Source: Primorskyibacter flagellatus (GTDB lineage: Bacteria > Pseudomonadota > Alphaproteobacteria > Rhodobacterales > Rhodobacteraceae). From it: a stretch of 64,000 nucleotides of DNA. Shown piece after piece: positions 6,896 to 10,537 of the stretch. Positions within the stretch are counted from its first letter, which is position 1. Each line of letters begins with the position of its first letter. The DNA lies in assembly GCF_014638275.1 (NCBI RefSeq), contig NZ_BMFJ01000001.1:2034338-2098337 (forward strand), read 5' to 3'. The translations under genes and the position numbers were made by a program. The notes beneath the pieces were generated by a model that made no database searches, was not told the DNA's origin, and saw only the letters and a program-made list of their open reading frames with translations.

Positions 6896-7957
6896 TCAGG
6901 CCAGTCCGCCACGCACCAGACCCTCGGCCAGCCGTGCATAGGCCTCGGCCATCGGACCGTCCCCGGCAGCGACCGGGGTGCCCGCGTCCCCGCCAAGCCG
7001 GGTGTCGAGGTCGATCGGAAGCTGCGCCAGCAACGGCACGCCCATCCTCTCAGCCTCCGCCTTCACTCCGCCGTGGCCGAAGATCGCGTGCTCCGCCCCG
7101 CAGGAGGGGCAGACGAACATCGACATGTTCTCGATCAGCCCCAGCACCGGGGTCTTCAGCGTGGCGAACATGTCGATGGCCTTGCGCGCGTCGATCAGCG
7201 CCACGTCCTGCGGCGTCGACACCACCAGCGCGCCGGTGACCTCGGACCGCTGGCACAATGTCAGCTGCACGTCCCCGGTGCCCGGAGGCAGGTCGACGAT
7301 CAGCACGTCAAGTTCGCCCCAGTTCACCTGCCCAAGCATCTGCTGCAGCGCCCCCATAAGCATCGGACCGCGCCAGACCACGGCCTTGCCCTCCTCCATC
7401 ATGAAGCCGATGGACATGAGCGTGACGCCGTGGGCGCGCAGCGGTTCGATGATCTTGCCGTCGGCCGACGCCGGACGGCCGGAGGCGCCCATCATCCGTG
7501 GCTGCGAGGGACCGTATATATCAGCGTCCAGCAGACCGACCCGCCGCCCCTGTTTCGCCAGCGCCACGGCGAGGTTGGAGGAAACGGTGGATTTGCCCAC
7601 CCCGCCCTTGCCCGAGGCGATTGCCAGGATCCGGTCCACACCCGAGGGCTTCATCGGCCCTGCCTGCGGCGTCGGGTGGCCACCGACCTTGATTTGCGGC
7701 GGGCGTTCCTGCTGATGCGCGGTAAGCACGACGCTTACCTCAGAGACGCCGGGCAGCGCGCGCACCGCGTTCTCCACGATCTGGCGCAGGGTCGACATCT
7801 GGCGCGCCATCTCGGGCGACGGCGCTTCGATCACGAAGCGCACGACACCGTTTTCAGCACTGAGGGCGCGGATCATGTCCCGGCTGACCAGGGTTCCGCC
7901 GTCGGGAAGCTCCATTCGCTGCAGCGCAGCAACAACTGAGGTCCTGAGGTCGCTCAT
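6896..7957 (-). CDS. mrp: Iron-sulfur cluster carrier ATPase Mrp/ApbC
   Basis: P-loop ATPase that binds and transfers Fe-S clusters to apoproteins; 353 aa. An N-terminal MIP18-like (DUF59) domain (about 1-85) precedes the deviant Walker A motif GKGGVGKST (about residue 115). The CPSCG pair that holds the bridging Fe-S cluster is near residue 272. Conserved [11 protein letters not shown] and VDLPPGTGD motifs are present. No obvious operon partner lies on this strand. Confidence 0.95.
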
Positions 7958-8265
7958 GGCACGGCTCCGATCGGTATGCGATTCCTGTCTAGACCACTAA
8001 ATATGGGAGTGCCACCCATGCCACAGCCCCCGGTAACGTGGCGTCAATTGTCCTTTCGGAAAATCCACGCAGATTAAGATTTCATCACGGTCCGCCAACA
8101 CTGTTGAAAACCAACAACTTGCTGGCCGCTCCTTCAGTTGCATCCGCTGCATAGCTGCGTTGCAGCATCGGACGTTGTGCAAGCGCAGAAAAACCGTATC
8201 TTCATCTCAACACGACGCCGCAGGGCAATCCGGCCCGACACGGCACACTCGAAAGGCACTACCAA
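7958..8265. other. Divergent intergenic region, mrp / DUF1127 gene
   Basis: 308 bp separating two divergent genes, so it should carry promoters for both. It has relatively low GC. For the plus strand, TTGTGC (8176-8181) and TATCTT (8198-8203) sit 16 bp apart and could be a promoter. In Rhodobacter the equivalent gene is driven by RpoHI/RpoHII; I cannot assign the sigma factor here. Confidence 0.4.
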
Positions 8266-8484
8266 ATGACGATGATGACCGAAACCCGCACCGCAGCAGT
8301 GGCCCACTCCGGCCTGTTCTCGCGTATCGTGGCAGGTCTGACCGAGCGCTACACCCAATACGCGGCTTACCGGAAATGTGTGGCGGAGCTCTCTGCCCTG
8401 TCCGACCGCGAGCTCCGCGACCTGGGCCTGCACCGCTCCATGATCCGTTCCCTGGCACACGAAGAAGCCTACCGGAACGTCTGA
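8266..8484 (+). CDS. DUF1127 small Arg-rich protein (CcaF1-like)
   Basis: Small basic protein of 72 aa with the DUF1127 core ELSALSDRELRDLGLHRSMI (about residues 42-61). ATG codons also occur at 8269, 8272 and in the next few codons, so the exact start may differ slightly. In Rhodobacter sphaeroides a DUF1127 protein (CcaF1) is encoded directly upstream of, and co-transcribed with, the CcsR1-4 small RNAs and acts in RNA maturation and turnover. The same arrangement is seen here, with the RNA array starting about 10 bp after the stop, so I infer the same role. Confidence 0.85.
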   Translation: MTMMTETRTAAVAHSGLFSRIVAGLTERYTQYAAYRKCVAELSALSDRELRDLGLHRSMIRSLAHEEAYRNV

Positions 8485-8490
8485 GTTTTA

Positions 8491-8528
8491 CAGTTCGGAA
8501 GGCCCTCTCCTCCTCCCTGGGCCGACTG
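8491..8528 (+). ncRNA. CcsR-like stem-loop RNA, copy 1
   Basis: Hairpin whose loop carries CTCTCCTCCTCCCT with CCTCCTCCC at 8509-8517. Flanks pair as CAGT/ACTG and CCC/GGG plus CGG/CCG. It starts 6 bp after the DUF1127 stop. The loop is complementary to G-rich (Shine-Dalgarno-like) sequence, as in CcsR RNAs of Rhodobacter. Confidence 0.8.
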
Positions 8529-8534
8529 AAACCA

Positions 8535-8569
8535 GCGACGGCATCTCTCCTCCTCCCTGATGTCGTCGC
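8535..8569 (+). ncRNA. CcsR-like stem-loop RNA, copy 2
   Basis: CCTCCTCCC at 8549-8557 in the loop. The stem pairs GCGACGGCAT (8535-8544) with ATGTCGTCGC (8560-8569), one G-T opposition. The stem sequence differs from copy 1 while the loop is kept, which supports a structured RNA. Confidence 0.8.
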
Positions 8570-8610
8570 ACCTATCCCCGGAGCCGGGTAAGTCGCTCCG
8601 CAAAGAGATG

Positions 8611-8643
8611 CACCGGGCCCTCTCCTCCTCCCTGGGTTCGGTG
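8611..8643 (+). ncRNA. CcsR-like stem-loop RNA, copy 3
   Basis: CCTCCTCCC at 8624-8632. Stem arms CACCGGGCCC (8611-8620) and GGGTTCGGTG (8634-8643) pair with G-U pairs. The distance from copy 2 (75 bp motif to motif) is longer than the other intervals, leaving about 40 bp of spacer. Confidence 0.8.
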
Positions 8644-8652
8644 ACAGCAAGA

Positions 8653-8687
8653 CCGGCGGCCCCTCTCCTCCTCCCTGGGGTCGCCGG
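8653..8687 (+). ncRNA. CcsR-like stem-loop RNA, copy 4
   Basis: CCTCCTCCC at 8667-8675. CCGGCG (8653-8658) pairs with CGCCGG (8682-8687), with an inner CCCC/GGGG pairing. Confidence 0.8.
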
Positions 8688-8703
8688 GACTGCACTACCA
8701 GAT

Positions 8704-8735
8704 ACGGCGGCCCTCTCCTCCTCCCTGGGTCGACG
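8704..8735 (+). ncRNA. CcsR-like stem-loop RNA, copy 5
   Basis: CCTCCTCCC at 8717-8725. Stem formed by ACG and inner CCC with the matching GGG and CGT; weaker than the other copies. Confidence 0.7.
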
Positions 8736-8742
8736 TTAAACG

Positions 8743-8783
8743 AACCGCGGCGCCTCTCCTCCTCCCTGGCGTCGCGGTTTTTT
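8743..8783 (+). ncRNA. CcsR-like stem-loop RNA, copy 6, with terminator
   Basis: CCTCCTCCC at 8758-8766. AACCGCGGCGCC (8743-8754) pairs with GGCGTCGCGGTT (8768-8779), one G-T opposition, and runs straight into six T residues (8778-8783). The last copy therefore doubles as a Rho-independent terminator for the whole DUF1127-RNA transcript. Confidence 0.8.
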
Positions 8784-8852
8784 CTGTTTCCGGGGCTGTC
8801 TCAGCGTCACAGGCAAAAAAGTTCTCATCTCCGCATTTCCGCCCCTCGATCC

Positions 8853-8921: not shown

Positions 8922-9656
8922 ATGAACAAATTAATGCTCTGCGCAGCTCTGGCTGCGTTCTCTTTCCCTGTGTCCGCCCTTGCCGTTTCGGCCCCCAGTG
9001 ACTTTGTCGTCACCAGGAGCGAAAACGGCGTCTCCGCGACGGTGATCGACGCGAACCACACACCGTTCTGGTTCGAAGAAATCCCGACCGAAGACGGTGG
9101 CCGCTACGTGGTCCACAACAACACCACGAACCTGTCGCTGATCGGGTTCGGCGTGACCAACTTCTTCGGCCTGCCCTACATCGACAACCCGGAGAACCCG
9201 GACGACCGCTTTTCCTACGGCCTGCCGACCTACAGCGTCAGCCAGGGGGATAACGAACTCTGGACGGTCTCCATCCTCGACAGCTGGCTCTGGACCGATG
9301 ACTACCTCTACGACGGCGGCTATTACTACGACGGAAACACCCAGTCGGCTGCGCAGCTGTTCGGGCCCTTCGGCAATATCCTGACGGATGCAGAGCCGAT
9401 CGCCTATTACTTCCAGGTCAGCGACGCCGATCTGCTTTATCCGGGGCTCAGTGCCAGCGGCTTCGGCTTCATCGAAGCGGCGCCGCATTCCGTCTTCTTC
9501 GGCGTCGCGGGTGACGACGCGGGCAATACCTACGCCTTCATCGTCGGCGGCCCGGTCAGCTCCGTTCCGCTGCCGGCACCGCTGCTGCTGCTGCTCGCCG
9601 GGTTCGGCAGCCTTGCCGCGCTGCACCGCCGCCGCCTGCACCGGACCCTCCACTGA
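8922..9656 (+). CDS. Exported VPLPA-CTERM protein
   Basis: 244 aa exported protein of unknown function. It has an N-terminal signal peptide (about residues 1-22) and a C-terminal sorting tail: VPLPA (about 215-219), a hydrophobic helix (LLLLLAGFGSLAALH) and a basic RRRLHR end. This tripartite tail is known from PEP-CTERM/VPLPA-CTERM proteins handled by an exosortase-type enzyme. The body is rich in Asp, Tyr and Gly. It shares an NNTTNLxLxGFGxTN segment with the next gene, so the two are paralogues. A strong terminator follows. Confidence 0.85.
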   Translation: MNKLMLCAALAAFSFPVSALAVSAPSDFVVTRSENGVSATVIDANHTPFWFEEIPTEDGGRYVVHNNTTNLSLIGFGVTNFFGLPYIDNPENPDDRFSYGLPTYSVSQGDNELWTVSILDSWLWTDDYLYDGGYYYDGNTQSAAQLFGPFGNILTDAEPIAYYFQVSDADLLYPGLSASGFGFIEAAPHSVFFGVAGDDAGNTYAFIVGGPVSSVPLPAPLLLLLAGFGSLAALHRRRLHRTLH

Positions 9657-9674
9657 GGAACCGGTTTAATCGAA

Positions 9675-9706
9675 CCGCGGCGCCAGCCCTCTGGCGCCGC
9701 GGTATT
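9675..9706 (+). terminator. Rho-independent terminator
   Basis: 12-bp perfect GC stem (9675-9686 with 9691-9702) around loop CCCT, followed by TATTTTATT. It closes the first VPLPA-CTERM gene. Confidence 0.85.
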
Positions 9707-9799
9707 TTATTGCGCGGGCATGGGTTCACTATTTCTTGATATAACGGTCACTTTGGATAAACTCACGTCATACAGATACATTCCATTTACGAGGTGACC

Positions 9800-10537
9800 A
9801 TGAAGACCATTGCCCTTGCTGCGGCGTTTGCCGCATTTGCCCTTCCCTCCCTTGCCGACGTCGTCGCGATCCCGTCTTTCCAGACCTATGTCGACACGAC
9901 CAGCGGTGCAGACCTGATCGATCCGACCATGGATGCGTTCTATCTGGTAGAGTCCGAAATCCCCGGCGGCGGGGCCTACACGATCTACAACAACACCACG
10001 AACCTCTACCTGACGGGCTTCGGCGCAACGAACCCCTACTACGGGATTCTCAGCGTCGGAGAGGTCGCACTTTCCGAATCCGGCGGGACGCCCGAATTCT
10101 CCAACGGCGAATACGCCGGCTACTGGAGCCCGGTCCTGCTCGCCAGCTACAACTGGTCCGTCTCGCTCGACCCGAGCTATCCGGACGGCGAAATCTATGG
10201 CGGCGGCTACTACTATGTGACGCCGGAAATGACGTTCGGGGACTCCAGCAACGTGCTGACGCCCGACGAACCCTATGGTTATTACTATTACGCTGAAGAC
10301 GGCCGGTTCCTTGATCCCGGCGCTTCCGCCAGCCTGTTCTTCTTCATCGAAGCCATCCCTGCCTCGACCCTGTTCGGCGTCGCGACGGACAACAACGGCG
10401 GGACCTATTCCTTCTACGGCAGCCAGGCGATGACCGGTGCGCCGGCGGTTCCCCTGCCCGCGGCCAGCCTGCTGCTGGTCGGTGGCCTTGGCGGGATCGC
10501 GGCGCTGCGGCGGCGTCGGATGCGCAAACTGGTCTGA
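9800..10537 (+). CDS. Exported VPLPA-CTERM protein, paralogue of the preceding gene
   Basis: 245 aa from the ATG at 9800, which has GAGG 5 nt upstream; a GTG at 9794 overlaps that ribosome site and is less likely. Signal peptide at about 1-18, then a Tyr/Gly/Pro-rich body and a VPLPAASLLLVGGLGGIAAL tail ending in RRRRMRKLV. It shares YxIYNNTTNLYLTGFGATN-like residues with the gene at 8922, indicating tandem duplication. It has its own promoter gap and terminator. Function unknown. Confidence 0.85.
   Translation: MKTIALAAAFAAFALPSLADVVAIPSFQTYVDTTSGADLIDPTMDAFYLVESEIPGGGAYTIYNNTTNLYLTGFGATNPYYGILSVGEVALSESGGTPEFSNGEYAGYWSPVLLASYNWSVSLDPSYPDGEIYGGGYYYVTPEMTFGDSSNVLTPDEPYGYYYYAEDGRFLDPGASASLFFFIEAIPASTLFGVATDNNGGTYSFYGSQAMTGAPAVPLPAASLLLVGGLGGIAALRRRRMRKLV

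Follow-up and report, generated by a model that had tools for sequence, protein, structure and literature searches.

A short segment (8266-8783) of the Primorskyibacter flagellatus DNA analysed here, a stretch of 64,000 nucleotides (nt) that we refer to as the window, very probably represents a ccaF1-CcsR (CIN1/cuckoo) operon, in which one stress-inducible transcript would encode a small DUF1127 protein and carry, within its 3' untranslated region, a trio of two-hairpin regulatory RNAs. The analysis directly supports the gene, the six hairpins, their pairwise grouping, the stem covariation around a near-constant loop, and the conservation of both the array and its upstream elements; the locus is genuine and strongly conserved, and as a typical DUF1127-CcsR (CIN1/cuckoo) operon it is ordinary for the family of this marine bacterium. 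What is surprising was found beyond the window, namely stand-alone copies of the RNA unit on plasmids.

The segment begins with a short DUF1127 gene that lies directly 5' of the hairpin array and on the same strand (Table 1). A first-pass annotation, made from the sequence alone, had described such a gene followed by six hairpins with a common loop, and it was right on both counts (as judged by the PF06568 match and by the six hairpins present in the fold), as well as in likening the layout to that of ccaF1-CcsR in Rhodobacter sphaeroides. The sequence CTCTCCTCCTCCCT is present six times within 8493-8780, and the motif TCCTCCTCCC starts at positions 8508, 8548, 8623, 8666, 8716 and 8757 (i.e. 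at spacings of 40, 75, 43, 50 and 41). The loop (13 nt, TCTCCTCCTCCCT) is the same in six out of six hairpins while the stems differ, and its earlier description as anti-Shine-Dalgarno-like was borne out. The minimum-free-energy fold of 8485-8790 contains all six hairpins (-134.9 kcal/mol, z = -5.43), and none of 100 shuffled sequences was as stable. The last hairpin (8742-8780) runs into a run of six T (8778-8783), and by virtue of this hairpin plus T-run it is presumed to act as an intrinsic terminator; a terminator scan of the window, limited to loops of 3-8 nt, reported none at the end of the array.

Table 1. Features of the DUF1127-CcsR locus, with positions counted from the first letter of the window.
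Feature	Position	Strand	Evidence
TGCATAGCTGCGTTG, VtlR-box-like	8148..8162	+	13 of 15 positions, by eye, against the reverse complement of the published Brucella box
Promoter-like TTGTGC-N16-TATCTT with an intervening GCAG box	8175..8202	+	sequence; similar elements before the contig-C6 copy
DUF1127 gene (ccaF1-like), 72 amino acids	8266..8484	+	Pfam PF06568, 51.4 bits, E 9.1e-14; identity to Pseudooceanicola at most 83%
Hairpin 1 (unit 1, first)	8494..8530	+	fold; Rfam CcsR1 49.0 bits (8493-8574); R1 85.6 bits (8492-8572)
Hairpin 2 (unit 1, second)	8535..8569	+	fold; Rfam CcsR1 and R1 matches of unit 1
Spacer hairpin without the CCUCCUCCC loop, between units 1 and 2	8579..8600	+	fold; own z -0.67
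Hairpin 3 (unit 2, first)	8609..8646	+	fold; Rfam CcsR1 41.6 bits (8607-8692); R1 78.1 bits
Hairpin 4 (unit 2, second)	8653..8687	+	fold; Rfam CcsR1 and R1 matches of unit 2
Hairpin 5 (unit 3, first)	8704..8736	+	fold; Rfam CcsR1 44.4 bits (8701-8783); R1 89.0 bits
Hairpin 6 (unit 3, second) with T6 run, presumed intrinsic terminator	8742..8783	+	sequence and fold

The spacing of the loops was used to define the unit of the array. By taking spacings of up to 47 nt as short and those of 48-95 nt as long (and setting aside comparisons that touch a spacing above 95 nt), we counted a switch between short and long in 280 of the 311 neighbouring spacing pairs recovered from 80 named loci and the window (within-array shuffles: mean 171, maximum 199), and in 325 of 333 pairs when hairpins were detected by motif only (shuffled mean 195, maximum 222). 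In L001-L005, the five closest named relatives, the spacings are 40-41, 72-74, 42, 48-50 and 41-42, and longer arrays show the same rhythm. The uneven spacer that had been pointed out between copies 2 and 3 is the boundary between units 1 and 2, and measures 72-74 nt in these same relatives. The Rfam family CcsR1 (RF02791), a two-hairpin model of 83 positions, matches the window three times, with one hairpin pair per match (Table 1); thus, the covariance-model search proposed earlier gave three consecutive matches that cover all units, yet all with scores below the family cut-off. The clade model R1, built in part from the window's own units, likewise recovered three units (78-89 bits). Furthermore, the two-hairpin pair can stand alone, since a lone unit with promoter-like sequence and T-run lies elsewhere in the genome. 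A precedent is provided by the R. sphaeroides transcript RS0680a, which we take to be CcsR1. According to a 2011 paper, this transcript consists of two stem loops, each with an anti-Shine-Dalgarno motif (PMC3927594).

Considering the alternating spacing, the CcsR1 matches to hairpin pairs and the published two-stem-loop transcript, the six hairpins most likely make up three CcsR-type RNAs, each with two hairpins, the predicted unit being the pair by both spacing and model matches. The proposal of the first-pass annotation, that each hairpin is a separate RNA of ~35 nt and that the locus is an enlarged CcsR array of six, did not hold and is very unlikely: it runs against the alternation, the three-fold fit of a two-hairpin model, the existence of a free-standing two-hairpin copy and the R. 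sphaeroides transcript. It follows that counting hairpins inflates the number of CcsR RNAs twofold, within a family in which the copy number varies widely.

The covariation of the stems, which had been asked for as a check in related genomes, was found both in an alignment of 49 sequences (A1) and in a recount based on motifs only. For the extraction of units the loop had to be exact and the stem had to have four pairs or more; this gave 115 units (at most the first and last of each locus, three for the window, with identical ones dropped); 48 of them and a copy from contig C6 of the same genome constitute A1. Out of its 20 stem pairs 18 had both sides changed, and 90.9% of the cells were paired (vs 70.6% in shuffled alignments), with a score of 0.610 (vs 0.238, reached by 0 of 500 shuffles) and with both sides changed in 218 cells (vs 70.5, again reached by 0 of 500). 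When the partner was slid by 1-3 columns as a control, pairing went down to 35-50%. Among the stem-filtered units (188 pairs), the first hairpins were paired at a fraction of 0.816 over eight positions (shuffled 0.535, maximum 0.569) and the second hairpins at 0.795 (shuffled 0.611, maximum 0.635). As the exact loop and the four-pair filter favour pairing, a second count, of 238 pairs from 77 loci, relied on motif and spacing without any stem filter and yielded 0.749 for the first (shuffled 0.499, maximum 0.533) and 0.793 for the second hairpins (shuffled 0.601, maximum 0.626). Six loci excluded by the unit extraction (L011, L038, L045, L069, L071 and L078) were included in the spacing counts and, where a short spacing was present, in the motif-only stems. 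When one mismatch was tolerated in the search, 510 hairpins were found, and the loop was exact in 476 of them; that the loop columns of A1 do not vary is owed in part to how its sequences were selected.

This constancy of the loop bears on the possibility that the hairpins serve the mRNA only, as a 3'-end stability or termination cassette of the DUF1127 gene. Their location in the 3' region of the gene and the terminator-like hairpin at the end would suit such a role, for which, however, a loop kept while the stems change (476/510) is not needed; moreover, the two-hairpin unit occurs apart from a DUF1127 gene in ten stretches of 8-12 kb searched by tblastn with the window protein. Hence, we regard a purely structural function as exceedingly improbable. 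The spacer hairpin between units 1 and 2 (8579-8600) is nearly unchanged, loop included, in L001-L005, and minimum-energy folds placed a short hairpin with a different loop in most long spacers. In 58 spacers of 60-80 nt (from 21 hand-picked arrays, with related spacers that are not independent) the mean z was -1.65, with 29 below -1.5, which hints that the spacer hairpin is likely to belong to the repeat, where it might shield sites from cleavage or direct it.

Six was the commonest number of detected hairpins (20 of 81 sets with the stem filter and 26 of 81 by motif only, the window included), while more than six were detected in 26 of the 80 named loci by either count, with a maximum of 14; these numbers are detections and likely too low where the loop has changed. 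Therefore the array is not unusually large, and an unusual array size was rejected as a feature of this locus: the claim that it exceeds the four RNAs of R. sphaeroides fails, since it most likely holds three units, fewer than four. One relative (G051) has fourteen motifs (L132), with five of its spacers measuring 75-76 nt and three of its units scoring equally, a pattern that would be expected after a recent tandem duplication of a whole unit. The model R1 found at least one unit in 79 of the 80 named loci (29 of which helped build it) and units in 85 of the 100 genomes of a family sample, and out of 149 family genomes a two-motif pattern was present in 86. Beyond the family R1 matches were rare: three of the 115 genomes of a class sample were matched (including our own and one family member), under strict filters by which weak matches may be lost. 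The Rfam CcsR1 model matched 49 of 61 family-sample genomes and exceeded its cut-off in only four, so that loci of this type probably go unannotated in most cases. A Mrp/NBP35-type ATPase gene (6896-7957, minus strand) lies divergent from the DUF1127 gene, and mrp was found inside the 2.5-kb flank at 32 of the 80 named loci, which we count in favour of the operon reading.

Co-transcription, processing, stress induction and mode of action are proposed by analogy with work done in R. sphaeroides and rhizobia, and the signals in the genome are compatible with them. Stress would drive transcription of the DUF1127 gene and the array as one transcript, in which RNase E, influenced by the DUF1127 protein, would cut the single-stranded linkers between units and release three RNAs of ~80 nt, the last one ending at the terminator. 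The two CCUCCUCCC loops of each RNA may pair with purine-rich ribosome binding sites and lower the translation or stability of the mRNAs, and (by our own inference) the strength of this effect would depend on how many loops there are and not on how they differ. The combination of a DUF1127 gene and CcsR RNAs is known as CIN1, a locus in which RNase E and CcaF1 take part in processing and CcaF1 promotes maturation (PMC10253847). Loops of anti-Shine-Dalgarno type in varying numbers of hairpins are known from rhizobia (PMC3927594, PMC7143759, PMC10746234), and in NfeR1 such motifs were genetically confirmed as redundant regulatory motifs (PMC7143759).

Several points weigh against the operon reading. 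No unit of the window (49.0, 44.4 and 41.6 bits) reaches the gathering score of RF02791 (65.3 bits), and because all three matches fall under this cut-off a default Rfam search of the window shows only a tRNA; the gathering score of RF02344 (ar14, 58.8 bits) is not reached in the window either (51.0 and 47.0 bits). The alternation of spacings fails in 31 of the 311 pairs, with 28 of the failures in L045, L069, L071 and L078, and in 8 of the 333 motif-only pairs, six of them in L069 and L071. Raised CcaF1 was found to interfere with maturation (PMC8307010), in conflict with the promoting role described in PMC10253847, and DUF1127 proteins are reported to act by protein contact rather than by RNA binding (PMC12501420). 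In addition, the CIN1 operon of R. sphaeroides is said to have an RpoHI/RpoHII promoter (PMC10253847); here promoter-like sequence is present, at most a candidate RpoH promoter.

The mode of action was explored through potential targets of the loop. The pattern GGGAGGAGG-N2-12-ATG occurs at 21 places in the own genome vs 2 for the reversed pattern, an excess also expected from ordinary Shine-Dalgarno sites; two of the 21 places are simply the RNA loci read in antisense, and at several others the ATG does not start a plausible gene. The full complement of the loop core, GGGAGGAGG, was observed at the ribosome binding site of pdhA (G000:C1:795859-795876, L158), which encodes the pyruvate dehydrogenase E1 alpha subunit (TIGR03182). 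This site drew attention since an effect of CcsR1-4 on the pyruvate dehydrogenase complex is reported for R. sphaeroides (PMC8307010). Its pairing with the loop (-20.0 kcal/mol) is stronger than that of each of the 37 open reading frames (ORFs) of the window, and across relatives the pdhA sites had a median of -14.8 kcal/mol (29 loci, i.e. the 30 supplied from 61 genomes minus L216, which gave no start) vs -6.4 kcal/mol for the window ORFs; complementary runs of at least six were present in 22 of the 29 pdhA loci and in five of the 37 ORFs. The pairing is not counted as specific, since a strong Shine-Dalgarno sequence of pdhA may by itself account for it, and since the control ORFs were defined mechanically and not matched. 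The pdhA site would make a good first target candidate, rather than evidence of regulation, and the data hint that the loops may pair with mRNA targets.

Alternatively, the array could mainly be a sponge, in which the loops titrate an RNA-binding protein (Hfq, the DUF1127 protein or another pyrimidine binder) instead of pairing with mRNAs. Many equal loops in variable stems would fit this, as would the interaction of CcsR RNAs with Hfq said to take place in R. sphaeroides (PMC8307010) and the effect of CcaF1 on CcsR levels in trans (PMC10253847). We nevertheless consider the sponge very unlikely: CcsR1-4 are said to target flhR mRNA in R. sphaeroides (PMC8307010), the NfeR1 motifs act on mRNAs (PMC7143759), and the above excess of GGGAGGAGG before ATG (albeit one that ordinary Shine-Dalgarno sites would also give) points the same way.

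Upstream of the DUF1127 gene the element TTGTGC was found in 80 of 81 loci (all except L012), and a TATCTT-like sequence was seen in close relatives; a sigma-70 scan reported no promoter at 8175-8202. The box-like sequence further upstream resembles that of VtlR, which in Brucella is CAATGCAGCCATGCA; VtlR acts there on three DUF1127 genes and a small RNA (sRNA) (PMC12595884). The form GCAT-N3-TG-N3-T, given for the regulator in Agrobacterium, where it acts on sRNAs (PMC7486931), fits the window box, while the commonest Ruegeria form differs by A or G at the second T (by eye). Similar box-like sequences lie upstream in relatives. Within the genome, TGCATRGCNGCRTTG occurs exactly twice, at the window site and inside a coding ORF; with at most one mismatch there were ten matches vs one in the control, and three further matches that we inspected lay inside a coding ORF, inside trxB and between genes. 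No LysR-like ORF was recognised by eye within 7 kb around trxB (a VtlR/LsrB orthologue was not sought elsewhere in the genome), and LsrB is described as found only in Rhizobiales (PMC11975290). The VtlR/LsrB regulon of Brucella and Agrobacterium resembles our locus in that a 13/15 box match precedes a DUF1127-sRNA operon, and differs in that no LysR gene was recognised beside trxB. Because of this missing neighbour and of the restriction of LsrB to Rhizobiales in one paper, a VtlR-type factor binding 8148-8162 stays a lead, as a candidate regulator suggested by sequence likeness.

At E <= 0.001 the model R1 recovered four units in the own genome, three in the window and one at C6:4662-4742 (72.2 bits), the latter being among the model's own sequences. 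This copy (L131:4661-4745, minus strand) was seen to be a single two-hairpin CcsR-type unit with promoter-like sequence and a T-run (one row of the alignment of such copies, L146:6061-6240, is a misplaced stretch that its column statistics include); the 211-amino-acid ORF upstream of it had no Pfam or NCBIfam match. The pattern GCTGCNNTGCNG-N4-24-TTGTGC matches the genome twice, before the two RNA loci, and has no match in the reversed control; as it was written after both loci had been seen, it shows rarity in the genome and not a predicted likeness. The 75.6-kb contig C6 is taken as a probable plasmid, since the relatives of its copy lie on plasmids. In PLSDB, the 261 bases around the C6 copy matched 18 plasmid records at 74-92% identity (five of them covering at least 80% of the query), of which 15 are typed as mobilizable and which belong to nine name groups (Sulfitobacter 6, Phaeobacter 3, Ruegeria 2, Pseudosulfitobacter 2 and five others once each). 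The chromosomal array itself was matched by only three plasmid records, and weakly.

Nine of the 18 plasmid regions were examined. Four (H1, H3, H5 and H9) have a common ParB/DUF3768 backbone, followed in three by a strawberry-notch gene; in H15, genes for ParB and DUF3768 are located close by on the opposite strand, a pcaF gene precedes the unit in H14 and H18, and H16 and H17 lie elsewhere. On these nine regions and on C6, R1 found one unit each (48.6-73.6 bits), with none of the ten stand-alone copies above any Rfam cut-off. When the window DUF1127 protein was searched by tblastn against the 8-12 kb surrounding each of the ten copies, no match with E up to 1 was obtained, and both control loci were recovered. 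Several other family genomes, among the matches listed, have units on more than one contig, therefore dispersed copies seem common. In the literature searched (available partly as excerpts, and consisting of works other than Reinkensmeier and Giegerich 2015, Billenkamp 2015 and Grutzner 2021) we found no report of plasmid CcsR-type copies.

We tentatively suggest, as a possibility that falls somewhat short of probable, that the CcsR-type unit is a mobile sRNA on Rhodobacterales plasmids, equipped with upstream elements similar to those of the chromosomal operon and a terminator of its own, and lacking an adjacent DUF1127 gene, which would be driven by the regulator of the host array (perhaps a LysR-type protein reading the VtlR-like box) and would add loop dose or plasmid control to the stress circuit of the host; the chromosomal repeat would then be the unit plus the spacer hairpin of the long spacers. 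If transcribed, the plasmid copies would make it possible to test in a natural setting whether the effect of anti-Shine-Dalgarno loops depends on dose, and would mean that a host stress RNA is carried between genera on plasmids.

Among known systems, the R. sphaeroides ccaF1-CcsR1-4 locus (CIN1, RF02791) resembles the window in that tandem two-hairpin units with CCUCCUCCC loops come after a DUF1127 gene, in the same orientation, and close with a terminator-like hairpin; it differs in having four units, where the window most likely has three, which score below the family cut-off. The rhizobial alpha-r14/NfeR1 family (RF02344) also repeats the CCUCCUCCC loop in hairpins of variable stem, but its RNAs have three hairpins and their own sigma-70 promoter, the excerpts consulted mention no DUF1127 gene, and the window stays under its cut-off. 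The cuckoo RNA family, as described in PMC4504443, shares the conserved loop motif, the helices without sequence conservation and the presence of several hairpins; there they number 2-4, whereas the Rhodobacterales arrays studied here reach 14 detected hairpins, as several two-hairpin units.

Downstream of the array, two adjoining genes (8922-9656 and 9794-10537) encode products with VPLPA-CTERM-like ends, the first below (20.5 bits) and the second above (30.2 bits) the TIGR03370 cut-off of 25.35. A terminator-like hairpin without the CCUCCUCCC loop (GCGGCGCC...GGCGCCGC), situated 3' of the next gene, gave a weak R1 match (24.9 bits, 9637-9706), and its stem resembles that of hairpin 6.
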